Shown here in pieces: positions 3-25,123 of a stretch of DNA of 25,123 nucleotides. Position 1 is the stretch's first letter, and each line of letters opens with the position of its first letter. This DNA is from a virus. The stretch is from the IMG/VR virus record IMGVR_UViG_3300025086_002601, positions 1-25,123 of that record; one strand, written 5' to 3'. The notes beneath the pieces are model-generated. The model saw only the letters and a list, made by a program, of their open reading frames with translations. It made no database searches and had not been told where the DNA came from. Position numbers and translations under genes: made by a program.

Positions 3-131
3 CTGAACTCAGAAACAGAGCCAGTATTTAGAACACAAATAGAAAAATTAAAACAGGTTTATAATTCCGAGAATATAACAGATGCAGTTATGACAGCAAT
101 CAAGAACGAATATGAAAGTAATAACAGTTAA
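3..131 (+). CDS. C-terminal end of an unrecognised protein (5' partial)
   Basis: A frame open from the left edge ends at a TAA at 129-131 and encodes about 42 residues, starting LNSETEPVF and ending NEYESNNS. The other two forward frames contain stops at once, so this is the likely upstream gene. It overlaps the start of the dioxygenase gene by 20 nt, which suggests translational coupling and a shared operon with the DNA-modification genes. The visible part is polar and probably helical and has no motif I can name. A DNA methyltransferase or other modification enzyme would fit the neighbourhood, but nothing here shows it. Confidence 0.5.
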   Translation: MNSETEPVFRTQIEKLKQVYNSENITDAVMTAIKNEYESNNS

Positions 132-1032
132 AGAACAAAAAACTGAAGATGAACTTAATGAAATTAAAGGCACATATCTTAATGAATCTTACATAAAATA
201 TCCTATTCCTAAAGAGAACACTACATTCAAAAATGAAGATGGCGATATTGTTGCAGTTTATTTGAACAAAATTGTTCCATTTGAACATTGTAAAAAAGCA
301 TTTCCTTTTTTGAGGAAAGCATCATTAAGAGAGTCAAACAACAGAGGAATGGCATCAGGTCGTACTGATGAAATAAAAGTCGGCATGAAGATTGATGGTT
401 TGTATGTTGGGAAAGTTTTAAGTGGTGGTAGGTTTATACCTCTAAAAAAAGATGGAACTTTATCTAATTCTCCTAAAGCAATGGCAGTTAATTCATCTGT
501 TATAGGTTATATGGACAGATATGCTAGGATTCCATATTGTAGAATGACAGAGTTTAGCCAAAGATTTTTTAACGAATACAAACAAACTTTGCCATACATC
601 AGGTACATCTCAAAACTTTATGAAAAATTTGTTCCTGAAAAATACAAACTGCAAAAAGCATATTGGCAAAGAATACATAAAGATTTCAAAATTGATAACA
701 CTGCATTCACTACTGTTACTTTAAATAACAATTTTAGAACTGCTTGTCATACTGACAAAGGAGATTATAAAGATGGGATAGGTAATTTAGCAGTATTAGA
801 AAAAGGCAAATATGATGGTGCTTACACAGTTATCCCAAAATATGGTATTGGTTTAGATGTTAGGAATACTGATGTTGGATTCTTTGATGTTCATGAGATT
901 CATGGAAACACCGAGTTAGTTAAACATGGTGCTTGTGAAAGAATATCGGCAGTATGTTATATCAGGGAAAAAATGATTAAGTGTGGCAGTGCCAAAGAAG
1001 AATTAAAAATAGCATTAGAGAGGAACGAATGA
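112..1032 (+). CDS. TET/JBP-family 2-oxoglutarate/Fe(II) dioxygenase (DNA base hydroxylase)
   Basis: Probable 306-residue DNA base oxygenase that hydroxylates the methyl group of thymine or 5-methylcytosine using Fe(II), O2 and 2-oxoglutarate. The C-terminal half has the double-stranded beta-helix signature: HTD at 213-215 (iron ligands H213 and D215) in CHTDKGD, a GNLAVLEKG stretch, IPKYGIGLDV, then FFDVHEIHGN (distal iron ligand probably H264) and ERISAVCY, where R277 would bind 2-oxoglutarate, 13 residues after the distal His. This pattern resembles trypanosome JBP and phage TET-like proteins. The N-terminal half, with its NRGMASG segment, matches the family only loosely. The stop codon shares ATGA with the start of the glycosyltransferase that would act next. 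Whether the substrate is T or 5mC cannot be read from the sequence. The ribosome-binding site is weak, consistent with coupling to the upstream gene. Confidence 0.85.
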   Translation: MKVITVKEQKTEDELNEIKGTYLNESYIKYPIPKENTTFKNEDGDIVAVYLNKIVPFEHCKKAFPFLRKASLRESNNRGMASGRTDEIKVGMKIDGLYVGKVLSGGRFIPLKKDGTLSNSPKAMAVNSSVIGYMDRYARIPYCRMTEFSQRFFNEYKQTLPYIRYISKLYEKFVPEKYKLQKAYWQRIHKDFKIDNTAFTTVTLNNNFRTACHTDKGDYKDGIGNLAVLEKGKYDGAYTVIPKYGIGLDVRNTDVGFFDVHEIHGNTELVKHGACERISAVCYIREKMIKCGSAKEELKIALERNE

Positions 1033-1802
1033 ATTTTAGAATAGCGATACCAAGTTGTAGTAGAGCAGAAACATTATTAAATAAAACTATTAAATATTTA
1101 TCTACTACTAATATTGATTTTAAAAATGTTGATGTTTTTTTAAGTAGAGCAGATGAGCTTAAAGAATATACTGAAAAATTAAAAGATTATCCTGTCAATA
1201 TTATTGTTGCTAACAACAACAGCATAAATGCTCAAAGAAATTTTATGGTAGATTATTATCCTGTTGGTCAGTTTGTTATGGGTATTGATGATGATATCAT
1301 GAGTCTTGAAAGCAAAATGAATGATAAAAAAACTTTTCCTGTAACTGATTTGGTAGGTTTAGGAGAACAAGCATTTGCTCTTTGTACTGAACACAAACTA
1401 GACTTGTGGGGCATAAATGCATCTTTTAATCCATTTTTTATGAAAACCACCATTAGTTTCAATCTAAAATTCGTAATTGCTTGTTTTTATGGTTGGGTAA
1501 ATCGACATGAAGATAAAGCATATGTTTTGAACGAAAGATATCACACGAAAGAAGATTATGAGAGAACTATCAAATATTATATGAAAGATGGTGGCATAAT
1601 TAGGTTCAATTATTTAGCACCTAAAACGAAGATATATACAGAAAAAGGTGGGATTCAAGAATATAGAACACCTGATTCAGAACAATTATCTGCTGATTAT
1701 ATGCTCAAAAAATATCCTATGTTTTGTAAAATCAATAATGCTAGGAAAGGCAAGTTTGCACAAATCAGATTAATTGACCAAAGAAAAAAATTAAAAAGAT
1801 GA
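1029..1802 (+). CDS. TET/JBP-associated glycosyltransferase (DNA hydroxymethyl-base glycosyltransferase)
   Basis: A 257-residue GT-A type glycosyltransferase, predicted to move a sugar from a nucleotide-sugar donor onto hydroxymethylated bases made by the preceding dioxygenase. It starts with FRIAIPSCSRAETL, as in TET/JBP-associated transferases, which also cluster with these dioxygenases in other phages and relate to the base J glucosyltransferase. A hydrophobic strand leads into GIDDDI, with D87-D89 as the metal/sugar-nucleotide DXD motif. KEDYERT at 174-180 is a candidate acidic catalytic segment. I chose the ATG at 1029 because it forms an ATGA overlap with the upstream stop. A longer frame from 981 would lie inside the dioxygenase gene and adds 16 residues unlike the family N-terminus. 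The last 12 bases overlap a leftward 55-codon frame. The sugar and target base are unknown. Confidence 0.8.
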   Translation: MNFRIAIPSCSRAETLLNKTIKYLSTTNIDFKNVDVFLSRADELKEYTEKLKDYPVNIIVANNNSINAQRNFMVDYYPVGQFVMGIDDDIMSLESKMNDKKTFPVTDLVGLGEQAFALCTEHKLDLWGINASFNPFFMKTTISFNLKFVIACFYGWVNRHEDKAYVLNERYHTKEDYERTIKYYMKDGGIIRFNYLAPKTKIYTEKGGIQEYRTPDSEQLSADYMLKKYPMFCKINNARKGKFAQIRLIDQRKKLKR

Positions 1803-2269: not shown

Positions 2270-2653
2270 ATGCCAAAAATAGTAAAAAAAACTAAAGAAA
2301 TAAGCGAAATGGTCAAGAGATTGTCAGGAATAGGTATAACTCATGACATGATTTGCTCTATTGCTAATATATCTAAACCCACACTCTACAAGTATTATGA
2401 TGAAGAAATTAGGGTAGGAAAAGCACAATCTACTGCCACGATTGCCAATAATCTCTATCGTATGGCAACAGGAGAGGGCAAAGAGGCACTTACAGCATCT
2501 ATTTTTTGGCTTAAAACACAGGCTGGTTGGAAAGAAACAGATGTTGTGGAGATAAACAATGTATCAGATGAAAAAGAACGATTTGAAAGATTGCTCAAAT
2601 CAGTTCGACAAACTAAATCCATTAAATCAGATAGCAACGAATCTACTCATTGA
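2270..2653 (+). CDS. terS: Terminase small subunit
   Basis: A 127-residue DNA-recognition subunit of the packaging motor. Residues about 7-50 form a helix-turn-helix region: a GIGITHDMICSIA helix, the turn ISKPTLYKYY, then the YDEEI and GKAQST segments common in phage small terminases. The middle holds a typical ASIFWLKTQAGWKE segment, probably the oligomerisation core. The polar C-terminus probably contacts the large subunit. I chose the ATG at 2270 because the 13 residues before it, from an upstream ATG at 2231, are a hydrophobic run unlike the family and lie within the promoter region. The gene overlaps the large terminase gene by 95 nt, an unusually long overlap. Confidence 0.85.
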   Translation: MPKIVKKTKEISEMVKRLSGIGITHDMICSIANISKPTLYKYYDEEIRVGKAQSTATIANNLYRMATGEGKEALTASIFWLKTQAGWKETDVVEINNVSDEKERFERLLKSVRQTKSIKSDSNESTH

Positions 2654-3848
2654 TTGGTACGATAAAGCAAGACCAACACAATTAGTAGAGGATAATGATA
2701 AATATAATATACATTTATTCCTCGCTGGTCGTGGTTGGGGCAAAACTTTAACAGGTGCATATGACATTGTTGAATATTGTTTAACGAATGATAATGTTGT
2801 TTGTGGTGTAGTTGCTCCCACATATGGCGACTTAAAAAGAGTTGTATTCGCTGGAGATTCAGGGTTTATTAATATAATCGATAAAAGATTATTGAGTAGC
2901 ACAGGTTATAATAAATCAGCCAATGAGATACATTTTTATAATGGCTCACGAATAGTTGGCTTTCCAGCGATAGAGCCTGACAGATTAAGAGGAGTTCAGT
3001 TCCATAGAGTATGGTGTGATGAGTTAGCCTCTTGGAGATATTCAGAAACTTTCGATAACTTAATGATGGCATTAAGATTAGGACAGAATCCTAAATGTAT
3101 TATTACAACAACACCTAGACCAACAAAGATTATAAAAACTCTAGCCAAAAGAAGTGATACCAAACTAATAACTGGCTCAACATTCGAGAACATTGATAAT
3201 CTAGCTGAATCATCTGTACAAATGTTAAAAGAAAGATATGAGGGAACTCGTATCGGTAGGCAAGAACTTTATGCTGAAATACTAGAAGATGTTGAGGGTG
3301 CTTTATTTAATTATAAAAACATAGAAGAAAACAGAATTACCAATCATCCTATCGACTTACAAAGAATCGTTGTCGCTATTGACCCAGCAGTCACAAGTAA
3401 TGAAAACTCTGATGAAACAGGCATGATAGTTGCTGGTCGTGATATTAATAATCATTACTACATATTACATGATGCTAGTCAAATAAGTTCTCCTGATGAA
3501 TGGGTTAAGAAAGCCATATCACTTTATAAACAATATGAATGTGATAGGATTGTAGCAGAGGTAAATAATGGTGGCGATTTGATTGAAAGACTATTAAGAA
3601 CACAAAATCAATCAATTCCTTATACAAGTGTAAGAGCGAGTAGAGGAAAAATGATAAGAGCCGAGCCGATATCAGCACTTTATGAGCAGAATCGAGTTCA
3701 TCATGTAGGAGTTTTTAAAGATTTAGAGGAACAAATGTGTCAGTTTACAGGAAATGGGGTACAATATCATGATGACAGGGTTGATGCTTTAGTTTGGGCG
3801 ATAACCTCACTACAAAATAGTGGTAAAGCAGTGTTCAATATAAGTTAG
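2559..3848 (+). CDS. terL: Terminase large subunit (ATPase-nuclease)
   Basis: A 429-residue DNA packaging motor. Walker A is AGRGWGKT (56-63), Walker B is VWCDE (151-155) and the coupling motif is ITTTP (182-186). The C-terminal RNase H-like nuclease shows its acidic residues in AIDPAVT (D275), AEVNNGGD (E334) and HDDRVDA (D405, D406, D409). The protein pumps DNA through the portal encoded next and makes the end cuts. The start at 2559 has GGAG about eight bases upstream; the ATG at 2568 is an alternative. The long overlap with terS suggests coupled translation and subunit balance. All motifs look intact. By overall pattern it belongs with terminases found beside HK97-type portals. The packaging mode (cos or headful) cannot be told here. 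Confidence 0.95.
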   Translation: MYQMKKNDLKDCSNQFDKLNPLNQIATNLLIDWYDKARPTQLVEDNDKYNIHLFLAGRGWGKTLTGAYDIVEYCLTNDNVVCGVVAPTYGDLKRVVFAGDSGFINIIDKRLLSSTGYNKSANEIHFYNGSRIVGFPAIEPDRLRGVQFHRVWCDELASWRYSETFDNLMMALRLGQNPKCIITTTPRPTKIIKTLAKRSDTKLITGSTFENIDNLAESSVQMLKERYEGTRIGRQELYAEILEDVEGALFNYKNIEENRITNHPIDLQRIVVAIDPAVTSNENSDETGMIVAGRDINNHYYILHDASQISSPDEWVKKAISLYKQYECDRIVAEVNNGGDLIERLLRTQNQSIPYTSVRASRGKMIRAEPISALYEQNRVHHVGVFKDLEEQMCQFTGNGVQYHDDRVDALVWAITSLQNSGKAVFNIS

Positions 3849-10175: not shown

Positions 10176-10769
10176 ATGTCAAGAAGTATAGGCTCGACAT
10201 TTGGAACACAGCTAACTAGTGGTCGATTAAGACCATTTTATGCAGTCAAAATGAATTTCACTAGTGGTGCTTTACTTCTTGCTACAACATATTCTGACTT
10301 AGTTATAGGTGGTAATACTTATATTGGGTCAGGAAACATCTTAAACATATCAGCTATAACCGAAACCTCTGATACTAGGGCAAGTGGTATAGAAATAATT
10401 TTAAATGGCTTAGACTCATCAATACTATCTGCTGGTTTAACAGAAGATACTGCTGGAATGGTGGTAGAAGTTTATTTTGGTGTTATGACAACAACAAATA
10501 ATGCTGATGCCATAGTAGATACTCCATATCAAGTATTTTCAGGGTTCATAGATGCTATGGTGTTAACTGATGGTGGAGAAACCTCTACACTAACATTTAG
10601 TGTAGAAAACAAGTTAATAACATTAGAAAAACCAACAGACAGAAGATACACAGACCAAGACCAACAAAATTTATTCACAGGAGATAAAGGTTGTAATTTC
10701 GTGACATCATTACAAGACAAATCTGTGGCTTGGGGTGCTGGTGTAGAAATGCCTAGCAAAACAGCATGA
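10176..10769 (+). CDS. Tail-tip assembly protein, DUF2163-like
   Basis: 197 residues, beta-rich. The N-terminus LRPFYAVKMNFTSGALLLAT with GNTYIGSGNIL resembles the start of DUF2163-type tail proteins. The end has a conserved segment, DRRYTDQDQQNLFTGDKGCNF, then LQDKSVAWG, that I recognise from tail-tip genes of siphoviruses next to gpJ-like proteins. It probably builds the tail tip or baseplate hub. It lacks the longer C-terminal part of gene-transfer-agent homologues. It overlaps the next gene by 4 nt (ATGA). In related tail modules this type of gene follows the distal tail protein, here at 22915-23541, so its place is unusual. Confidence 0.6.
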   Translation: MSRSIGSTFGTQLTSGRLRPFYAVKMNFTSGALLLATTYSDLVIGGNTYIGSGNILNISAITETSDTRASGIEIILNGLDSSILSAGLTEDTAGMVVEVYFGVMTTTNNADAIVDTPYQVFSGFIDAMVLTDGGETSTLTFSVENKLITLEKPTDRRYTDQDQQNLFTGDKGCNFVTSLQDKSVAWGAGVEMPSKTA

Positions 10770-11173
10770 ATGAAAAAAATGAAGTTGTTGATTTATATAA
10801 AAGATTCGATAAATATAAAATACATACTAGAGAACAGATTTTATGTCACATCAATAAATCATTCGATTTAAATCAATATAAAATACAAAGAAACAATAAT
10901 GTCATAGTATCATTTACTAATTGGGCATTTATGAATGAGAAACATGAAGAACACTATAAAAAAACAGGTCAGATGTTGTTTAATTTTTGGAATAGTGGCG
11001 ATAGATGTTGGATAATAGATTCTATAGTCCATGATGATAACTTTGATGATGTATATAATTGGGCGAAAGAATATTTTGGAAAAGAGTTAGATGTTAATTC
11101 TGTTTCATGGTTAAGAATGAAAAGTATGACAGAGATTAGCGAACAAAAAACAATTTATAACAGGTATAGATAA
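10766..11173 (+). CDS. HlyC-type toxin-activating lysine acyltransferase
   Basis: A 135-residue protein that aligns by eye with HlyC, the enzyme that moves a fatty acyl group from acyl carrier protein to lysines of RTX toxins. The match runs through NQYKIQRNNNVIVSFTNWAF (HlyC has NQY then CSWANLS), a KHEEHYKK helix, NFWNSGDRCWIIDSI (HlyC DWTSGDRKWFIDWI) and the following helix ending YFGKEL. The catalytic His fits H20 (HlyC H23) and the catalytic Asp fits D85 (HlyC D92), so the enzyme looks active. It lies between two tail-tip genes with 4-nt and 1-nt overlaps, hence is made with them. The natural target may be a phage tail protein, since no RTX toxin is visible. HlyC itself is about 170 residues, so this one is short. 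The family call is from memory of HlyC, not from a search. Confidence 0.7.
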   Translation: MNEKNEVVDLYKRFDKYKIHTREQILCHINKSFDLNQYKIQRNNNVIVSFTNWAFMNEKHEEHYKKTGQMLFNFWNSGDRCWIIDSIVHDDNFDDVYNWAKEYFGKELDVNSVSWLRMKSMTEISEQKTIYNRYR

Positions 11174-23669: not shown

Positions 23670-23897
23670 CTACTGGGATAATGGATTATCCCTTTTTGCT
23701 TTCATCTCTGATACTATCGCATTGAGGACTTTAATTTCTGCCTCATTGATAGCGATTTGTTGTTCTAATGGTTTAATATCAGGTGCAGATTTAGATTCAA
23801 GTACATCAATCCTTTGAATTAATTGACCCTGATAAACGAATAGACCAGCTATCGTTATTACTAATCCTATACCTGTTGCTATGTTTTTAATATCCAC
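23670..23897 (-). CDS. Small membrane-anchored coiled-coil protein, 75 aa (GTG start)
   Basis: Start codon GTG at 23897, with AGGAAG upstream; it overlaps the end of the previous leftward gene by 11 nt. Residues about 6-23 form one N-terminal membrane segment (IATGIGLVITIAGLFVY). Residues 25-70 are a charged helix likely to form a coiled coil (LIQRIDVLESKSAPDIKP, then EQQIAINEAEIKVLNAIV). This shape resembles i-spanins (Rz-like), but it is short and no Rz1-like lipoprotein frame was noticed. The coupled large acidic gene suggests another role is possible. Function unknown. Confidence 0.7.
   Translation of the reverse strand: MDIKNIATGIGLVITIAGLFVYQGQLIQRIDVLESKSAPDIKPLEQQIAINEAEIKVLNAIVSEMKAKRDNPLSQ
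23675..23697 (+). terminator. Intrinsic terminator of the tail operon
   Basis: GGGATAAT (23675-23682) and ATTATCCC (23685-23692) are perfectly complementary, with a tight loop, and are followed by five T residues. This ends rightward transcription of the late genes. The hairpin overlaps the last codons of the leftward 75-aa gene, so the sequence serves both. Confidence 0.85.
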
Positions 23898-25123
23898 GAA
23901 TCTTCCTCAAATGTTCAACTGCTCTTATGGTGTTTGCTTTAGCCTCATCAATCTTTTCTTGATACTGGCTAAACTCATCATTATAAATGACTTGGCTCTG
24001 TTGATATATATTTCTGTTATCAACATATTCTCTGAACTCATCATAATTTCCACCATTCATAATAGTTTGATTATTAAATAAATTATTATTGATAGAACTG
24101 TAGCTGTCAATATTTATCTTCGATTGCATTGCTTTAGCAACAATCATATTAGTCACAACTAATTGTTTATTAACTTCTTTAACCACTTCGGCAACTTTGG
24201 TAGCAATCTTTTCAACTGAAATGTCTGAGATAGTATTTCTTTCAACTGCTGTATCTTCTGTAGCAGTATCATCAACAACACTGTTTTCTGCTGTTGTTTC
24301 TTCGCTTTCGTTATTGCTACTGCTAGATTCTTCACTTCCTGTTCTTGTTTCGTTAGTAGATTCGGATTGAGCTGTTTCTGTTTCAGAAACTTCTGTTTCT
24401 TCTGCTGATTGTTCAACACTATTTCCTGATGACTCATTTGGCTCGTTGGTTTCTTCGGCAGTAGATTCTGCTGACTCACTATTTCCTGTGCTAACTTCTT
24501 CTCGTACAGATTCTCGTTCAGTGATTGTTTCAGAGTTTGAGCTTTCTGTGATTTCTTCTGAGAGAGCAACGATTTCTGTTGCTTTAGGTTCTTCTTCAAT
24601 GATTTCGATTTCTGCTGAGAACGTTTCGAGGGTCTTTGGTTCTTCATATGCTACCTCCATAGCTATTTCTTTGAACACATTAATTGTTCCTATATTGATT
24701 TCTTCTTTTTTAATTTCTTCAATAAATACTTCTTCAAACTTTTCAAATACTATTTCAGGTTCTTCATAAACTTCAAAAGTAAATTCTTCTATAGGGATAA
24801 ACTCAACTGTTTCAACACTGCTAAATAATACTTCTTCTATCTCTTGAAAGGTTGTGGTGATGTGTGAGGTTTGTGTATTCGATAAAACGACTGGTTCATA
24901 AGTCATTATTACACTTACATTATCAACATTAGCACCACCAAGACCACCAGCAACACCATTAGTATCGGTACCACTAATATGAATATTTCCAATGTTCGCA
25001 TCAGACCCATTATGTGTGACACTATTTTCAAAAGTTTCTCCATTAATTCCTGTAACATCATATCTCTCCTGTGTAGTCGTAGATAATATATTATTATCAG
25101 TATCTTTTATTTGTAATCTAATC
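23887..25123 (-). CDS. Large acidic low-complexity protein, beta-rich N-terminal part (5' partial)
   Basis: At least 411 residues. The frame stays open upstream of the ATG at 24906 to the window edge, so that ATG is internal (context NVSVIMTYEP). Residues before it (SGTDTNGVAGGLGGANVDNV, then SVIMTYEP) look like the last strands of a jelly-roll or lectin-like domain. Next comes a Glu-rich part. Counted from M24906, a Ser/Glu/Thr low-complexity stretch covers about 110-225, followed by a C-terminal helical and Asn-rich part (YSSINNNLFNNQ, then NYDEFREYVDNRN) ending RAVEHLRKIRGY. Such disordered acidic linkers occur in marine phage virion-associated proteins, but I cannot name a family. It is transcribed leftward, toward the tail operon, so it belongs to a separate operon whose start lies outside. 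The strand is secure because opposite frames are short. Confidence 0.7.
   Translation of the reverse strand, partial: IRLQIKDTDNNILSTTTQERYDVTGINGETFENSVTHNGSDANIGNIHISGTDTNGVAGGLGGANVDNVSVIMTYEPVVLSNTQTSHITTTFQEIEEVLFSSVETVEFIPIEEFTFEVYEEPEIVFEKFEEVFIEEIKKEEINIGTINVFKEIAMEVAYEEPKTLETFSAEIEIIEEEPKATEIVALSEEITESSNSETITERESVREEVSTGNSESAESTAEETNEPNESSGNSVEQSAEETEVSETETAQSESTNETRTGSEESSSSNNESEETTAENSVVDDTATEDTAVERNTISDISVEKIATKVAEVVKEVNKQLVVTNMIVAKAMQSKINIDSYSSINNNLFNNQTIMNGGNYDEFREYVDNRNIYQQSQVIYNDEFSQYQEKIDEAKANTIRAVEHLRKIRGY

Follow-up and report, generated by a model that had tools for sequence, protein, structure and literature searches.

The window analysed here is the entire IMG/VR record IMGVR_UViG_3300025086_002601, a 25,123 bp stretch of the genome of a marine tailed phage, truncated at both ends. 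It opens with a set of three genes, encoding a ParB-like protein, a TET/JBP oxygenase and a glycosyltransferase (Table 1), which most likely adds sugars to bases of the phage DNA. The TET and glycosyltransferase ORFs share the ATGA at 1029-1032, and genes for the small and large terminase subunits follow, as an earlier sequence-only reading of this DNA had described. Given the truncation, the upstream genes had to come from relatives. Contig L007 shares 3,906 bp with the window at 100% identity and reaches 9 kb further upstream, and the two jointly span most of the corresponding genome. In L007, a gene for a DnaB-like ATPase (assigned from a scan of its equivalent in contig G005) lies 5' of the parB-like gene, so that, with the terminase genes on the 3' side, the cassette is located between replication and packaging genes. 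The dN/dS values against close relatives (TET, 0.03-0.09; glycosyltransferase, 0.05-0.06; ParB, 0.025) reveal purifying selection, indicating that these genes are kept for function. A scan of bacterial genome contigs yielded no close relative.

Table 1 Features of the hypermodification cassette and the adjacent genes in the window
Feature	Position	Strand	Remarks
ParB-like (PF02195) gene, C-terminal end	3..131	+	Cut by the window start; 20 bp overlap with the TET start
TET/JBP 2-oxoglutarate/Fe(II) DNA-base dioxygenase, 306 aa, putative thymine hydroxylase	112..1032	+	PF12851, predicted fold
Fe-binding HxD motif, H213-T-D215	748..756	+	Invariant in 52 relatives; aligns with HxD of human TET2
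D218	763..765	+	Position of TET2 N1387 in the alignment
HGN motif: H264 (second Fe-binding histidine), G265, N266	901..909	+	H264 invariant
R277 (2-oxoglutarate-binding; R277-x-S279) and R285	940..966	+	R285 at the position of TET2 H1904
TAGT (TET-associated glycosyltransferase), 257 aa from the ATG at 1029	1029..1802	+	PF20691, GT-A fold
DDD motif D87-D89 (within G85-IDDDI), metal/nucleotide-sugar	1287..1295	+	Invariant in 20 relatives and in isolates
Terminase small subunit	about 2270-2653		Downstream of the cassette
Terminase large subunit	2559-3848		Downstream of the cassette

The TET protein matched the Tet_JBP profile PF12851 with 86.9-88.8 bits (cut-off 34.9), and the same profile had no match in 14 control genomes (0/14). 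No further Pfam domain above the cut-off was found in its 306 amino acids, and thus no J-DNA-binding domain. The AlphaFold2 model, generated from an alignment of 52 relatives, reached a mean pLDDT of 94.2, and the best 26 matches in a Foldseek search of the PDB were all to NgTET1, CcTet, TET2 and CMD1 (E 1e-9 to 2e-11); the predicted fold is the TET/JBP variant of the double-stranded beta-helix. Among PDB sequences, a profile of close relatives matched no TET and a wider profile matched TET2 weakly (E 0.002), so that the family was settled by the fold search, which returned TET/JBP enzymes. The dioxygenase that had been called from its HTD, HGN and R-S motifs is thus borne out, with all motifs at the expected places and with H213, D215, H264 and R277 invariant among the 52 aligned relatives. 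The TET2 counterparts of D218 and R285, namely N1387 and H1904, are both base-contacting residues.

For the downstream ORF, the match to the TAGT profile PF20691 (52.3 bits, cut-off 27.5) and a confident model (pLDDT 90.8) with a GT-A fold, to which TarP, TarS and RmlT are the closest structures, agree with the glycosyltransferase deduced previously from GIDDDI. The sugar donor is presumed to be a host nucleotide-sugar; no sugar-nucleotide gene that might hint at the sugar was recognised. In two contigs (L014, 1433-2206, and L015, 10915-11676), TETs that are 88-89% identical to that of the window are followed by TAGTs with only 16-17% identity to the product of 1029-1802. The presence of another TAGT subtype behind such similar TETs indicates that the glycosyltransferase was replaced recently. 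In actinophages, ParB-TET-TAGT cassettes (L172, 4942-6290; L025, 1710-3028) have a gene for a glucosaminyl deacetylase next to them, hinting that GlcNAc may be put on the base and subsequently deacetylated. Arthrobacter phage Altadena combines a TAGT with a deacetylase.

The reading frame that precedes TET, which had escaped the sequence-only reading, is the end of a parB-like gene. Frame 3 of the window (bases 3-131) encodes LNSETEPVFRTQIEKLKQ...ESNNS*, identical to the end of the full ParB-like ORF of L007 (8542-9147, 201 aa), which carries an N-terminal ParB domain (PF02195, 32.4 bits); the product also resembles the C-terminal end of gp17 of Pelagibacter phage HTVC112P. Relatives of the window TET and, as a contrast set, of the TET of Methylophilales phage Melnitz were gathered from IMG/VR. 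In every window-type viral locus that includes the gene directly 5' of TET, this gene is ParB-like (80/80). Related ParB domains occur in other phages as fusions with adenine methyltransferases, and also alongside carboxymethyltransferases (PMC12783734), which suggests that ParB is a general partner of DNA-modifying enzymes. In many RefSeq records of Mycobacterium phages (H100-H164), the ParB-linked TETs are called 'queuine tRNA-ribosyltransferase', apparently a misannotation that has spread; PHROG 6059 carries this name too.

The main question regarding this cassette is whether its substrate is thymine or a methylated cytosine supplied by an upstream methyltransferase, the two options left by the sequence-only reading. 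The Melnitz TET adjoins a C5-methyltransferase annotated as HhaI-like, and PF00145 was found in 51 of the 51 Melnitz-type records. By contrast, the identical search found PF00145 in none of the 96 records of the window TET type, comprising 85 viral records and 11 isolates (HTVC112P, P12024L, S-CBWM1, Cr30, DLP6, Lilmac1015, Rich, Prince, LittleMunchkin, Altadena and Tonitrus), although both counts overstate independence, since these are related and for the most part fragmentary sequences, forming approximately 21 (window type) versus 8 (Melnitz type) clusters at 70% identity and 14 versus 3 at 60%. The annotated 'DNA methyltransferase' of P12024L belongs to the N6/N4 type (PF01555) and is therefore no C5 enzyme. 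A relative that could be followed from end to end is the 35,694 bp contig L010/G005, whose ends overlap (they share an exact repeat of 119 bp and are 90.5% identical across 496 bp), giving a unit of about 35.2 kb; it is syntenic with the window at 77-93% DNA identity, and no methyltransferase was recognisable among its early proteins. The thymidylate synthase family (PF00303) is absent from the window, from G005 and from HTVC112P, and across the window-type records searched it was represented only by a full thymidylate synthase in Cr30 and a sub-cut-off match in P12024L. With a ParB-like gene in the upstream position and PF00145 in 0/96 records, 5mC made by an upstream methyltransferase is unsupported for this type of phage and thymine is favoured; of the two earlier options, only the first has gained ground.

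The differences between the two sets of loci extend to individual residues of the TETs. At position 285, R is found in 85/85 marine ParB-type TETs and also in 4/4 related isolates, as opposed to D in 63/67 Melnitz-type TETs, and position 266 is N in 85/85 of the ParB type versus V in 66/67 of the Melnitz, C5-methyltransferase-linked type. These differences are in line with the existence of two TET classes, as judged from alignments, although actinophage ParB-TETs deviate at both positions, so that the two residues are leads rather than rules. Position 218, also considered as a marker of specificity for T versus 5mC, was rejected because D is found there in both types (85/85 and 67/67). The Melnitz-type loci resemble the window in that 10 of 66 encode a TAGT-like glycosyltransferase; ParB is not directly upstream in these loci, and profile searches found ParB-like ORFs in only 2 of the 66.

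The gene directly 3' of TET proved to be an exchangeable slot, overlooked by the sequence-only reading, which had correctly named both enzyme families of the cassette. Among the window-type viral loci, this slot holds a TAGT gene in 40 cases, an FkbM methyltransferase in 17, a P-loop kinase in 9, a module led by a glutamine amidotransferase in 15 and another module start in 5, modules with GATase, GNAT, ADDT and kinase genes amounting to about 20. When mapped on the maximum-likelihood TET tree, these modules require at least 15 exchanges (shuffled labels: minimum 33, mean 40). The exchanges are evident even between close relatives: one pair of TETs with 94% identity is followed by FkbM in one case and TAGT in the other, and a pair with 81% identity by ADDT and TAGT, respectively. 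Thus, comparison of the loci shows a constant ParB-TET core combined with a swapped decoration module. In five loci, a protein of about 250 aa (family 93; L058, 2502-3263) without a match in Pfam or NCBIfam is encoded between TET and the ADDT and kinase genes and is perhaps a new tailoring enzyme.

The most informative occupant of the slot is ADDT (amino acid:DNA transferase; PF18724, 65.8 bits), which is specific for 5-hydroxymethyluracil (5hmU) according to published work. It was found in 22 window-type loci versus 0/66 Melnitz-type loci, and 98% of its length is covered by homology to a Vi01 protein (Salmonella phage; E 1e-23). Hypermodified thymidine is reported for ViI/Vi01 and related phages (Lee et al. 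2018, 2022, cited in PMC11955845). Vi01, which served as a positive control, encodes PF00303 (54 bits) but lacks a TET, in keeping with a hydroxymethyl group that is formed at the level of the nucleotide. The ADDT module is thus common to ViI/Vi01 and relatives of the window cassette, but the hydroxymethyl group of ViI/Vi01 presumably arises at the nucleotide level, via the thymidylate-synthase homologue, whereas the window lacks PF00303. Rhodococcus phage Tonitrus encodes ParB, TET, ADDT and a kinase, and neither PF00303 nor PF00145. The P-loop kinase was dropped as a second 5hmU-specific marker since its relatives also occur in Melnitz-type loci; with kinase-like proteins accompanying both types of TET, ADDT alone is diagnostic.

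Among known systems, the closest cultured relative is HTVC112P (MN698246), whose gp17-gp19 begin, like the window cassette, with a ParB-like gene followed by a TET that is 54.7% identical. Like the records of the window type, the complete HTVC112P genome encodes no C5-methyltransferase; unlike the window, it has an FkbM-type methyltransferase in place of TAGT, and its TET is annotated as DnaJ/SNF2. In Tonitrus (genes 1-7, PP978825), a ParB-like and a Tet-like protein likewise feed a hypermodification module, which its authors termed a thymidine hypermodification system (PMC11955845); here, the TET is very divergent and aGPT-Pplase2/ADDT and a kinase replace the glycosyltransferase. In the base J pathway of kinetoplastids, thymine in DNA is hydroxylated by JBP1/JBP2 and a glucosyltransferase then acts (PMC10276184). 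The window cassette would share this two-step logic, a TET/JBP enzyme first hydroxylating thymine within DNA and a sugar then being transferred. The window TET differs from JBP1 in the lack of a J-binding domain, the phage is unrelated to kinetoplastids, and its modification presumably has a protective role, not a regulatory one. The suggestion that the product might be a relative of base J is nevertheless favoured by the lack of a C5-methyltransferase in the 96 records.

Given the homology of ADDT to the Vi01 protein and the lack of both PF00303 and PF00145 in Tonitrus, the simplest account is that ParB-TET makes 5hmU from thymine in DNA. Because TAGT occupies the same slot, next to the same ParB-TET core, as ADDT, the product in the window is most likely glycosylated 5hmU. 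We therefore regard the cassette, with a probability of roughly 0.72, as a post-replicative hypermodification system in which a ParB-assisted TET converts thymine to 5hmU and TAGT glycosylates the latter, yielding a base-J-like product that blocks restriction. Under this scheme, the ParB-like DNA-binding protein would work with TET, possibly by targeting it; TET would act after the DNA has been polymerised, hydroxylating thymine at its methyl group; TAGT would attach a host-derived sugar to the resulting hydroxymethyl group; and the base-J-like nucleobase formed in this way may protect the phage DNA from restriction. The glycosylated hydroxymethyl base proposed earlier for this phage accordingly holds at the levels of sequence, fold and context.

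The principal alternative, a cytosine pathway in which 5mC, methylated by the host or by a phage enzyme that escaped recognition (for example, one outside PF00145), is oxidised to 5hmC and glycosylated, appears unlikely. To our knowledge, the known phage TETs with demonstrated activity use 5-methylcytosine as the substrate. Such activity is ascribed to phage TETs in the passage of PMC11404850 that cites Burke et al. (2021), and the cytosine pathway would also fit the tie of the second TET type to a C5-methyltransferase in 51/51 records and the D218 base-contact position common to both types. Against it stand the 0/96 count for PF00145, which includes complete genomes, the consistent R versus D difference at base-contact position 285, and the use of the same slot by ADDT modules, kin of a protein from a phage with thymidine hypermodification.

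Much less probable are a different substrate of TET (RNA or some other methylated base) and a role of the pair in demodification or against the host, instead of in protecting the phage's own DNA. A fungal TET is active on both 5mC and 6mA (PMC11040006), and the fusion of ParB domains to adenine methyltransferases in other phages points in the same direction, but the steady coupling of the window-type TETs to enzymes that use a hydroxyl as their point of attachment (TAGT, FkbM, ADDT, kinase) and the position of the cassette beside replication and packaging genes argue for modification of the phage DNA itself. That the matches are fortuitous or the genes decayed and functionless is hardly credible considering the profile scores far over the cut-offs, the high-confidence models, the frames that are intact in dozens of contigs and the dN/dS of 0.03-0.09.

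Phages were already known to encode TETs, TAGTs and ParB-TET pairs, and a thymine role of phage TETs was previously proposed in annotation, one mycobacteriophage gene having been deposited as 'thymidine hydroxylase'. What is new here, from comparison of sequences, is the quantified split between ParB-linked and methyltransferase-linked TETs and the finding that ADDT and TAGT replace each other on one hydroxylase, which together make thymine the favoured substrate. More generally, we consider it fairly probable that the ParB-linked phage TETs are a separate functional class that oxidises thymine within DNA and is equivalent to JBP in viruses, that they depend on ParB for loading or targeting, and that a freely exchanged slot (sugars of several kinds, methyl, amino acids, phosphate) allows related phages to alter their base chemistry without replacing the hydroxylase. 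If true, the clean split would tell phages with modified cytosine from those with modified thymine, and abundant marine phages would offer an accessible viral system for studying how base J is made, thymine-specific DNA oxygenases and a set of base-tailoring enzymes.

Finally, several genes outside the cassette were observed in this type of phage. An HlyC-like acyltransferase (PF02794, 45.6 bits) is encoded within the tail module of the window (10766-11173, plus strand), and HTVC112P encodes such an enzyme (gp46) at a comparable position. A second 2OG-Fe(II) oxygenase, of the PKHD-like, non-TET family PF13640, is encoded on the minus strand in a leftward early operon in L007 (3249-3839) and L017 (3062-3652). 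At its 3' end, the window contains, on the opposite strand (23887-25122, minus), a gene for a long protein of low complexity in which E, T and S are abundant.
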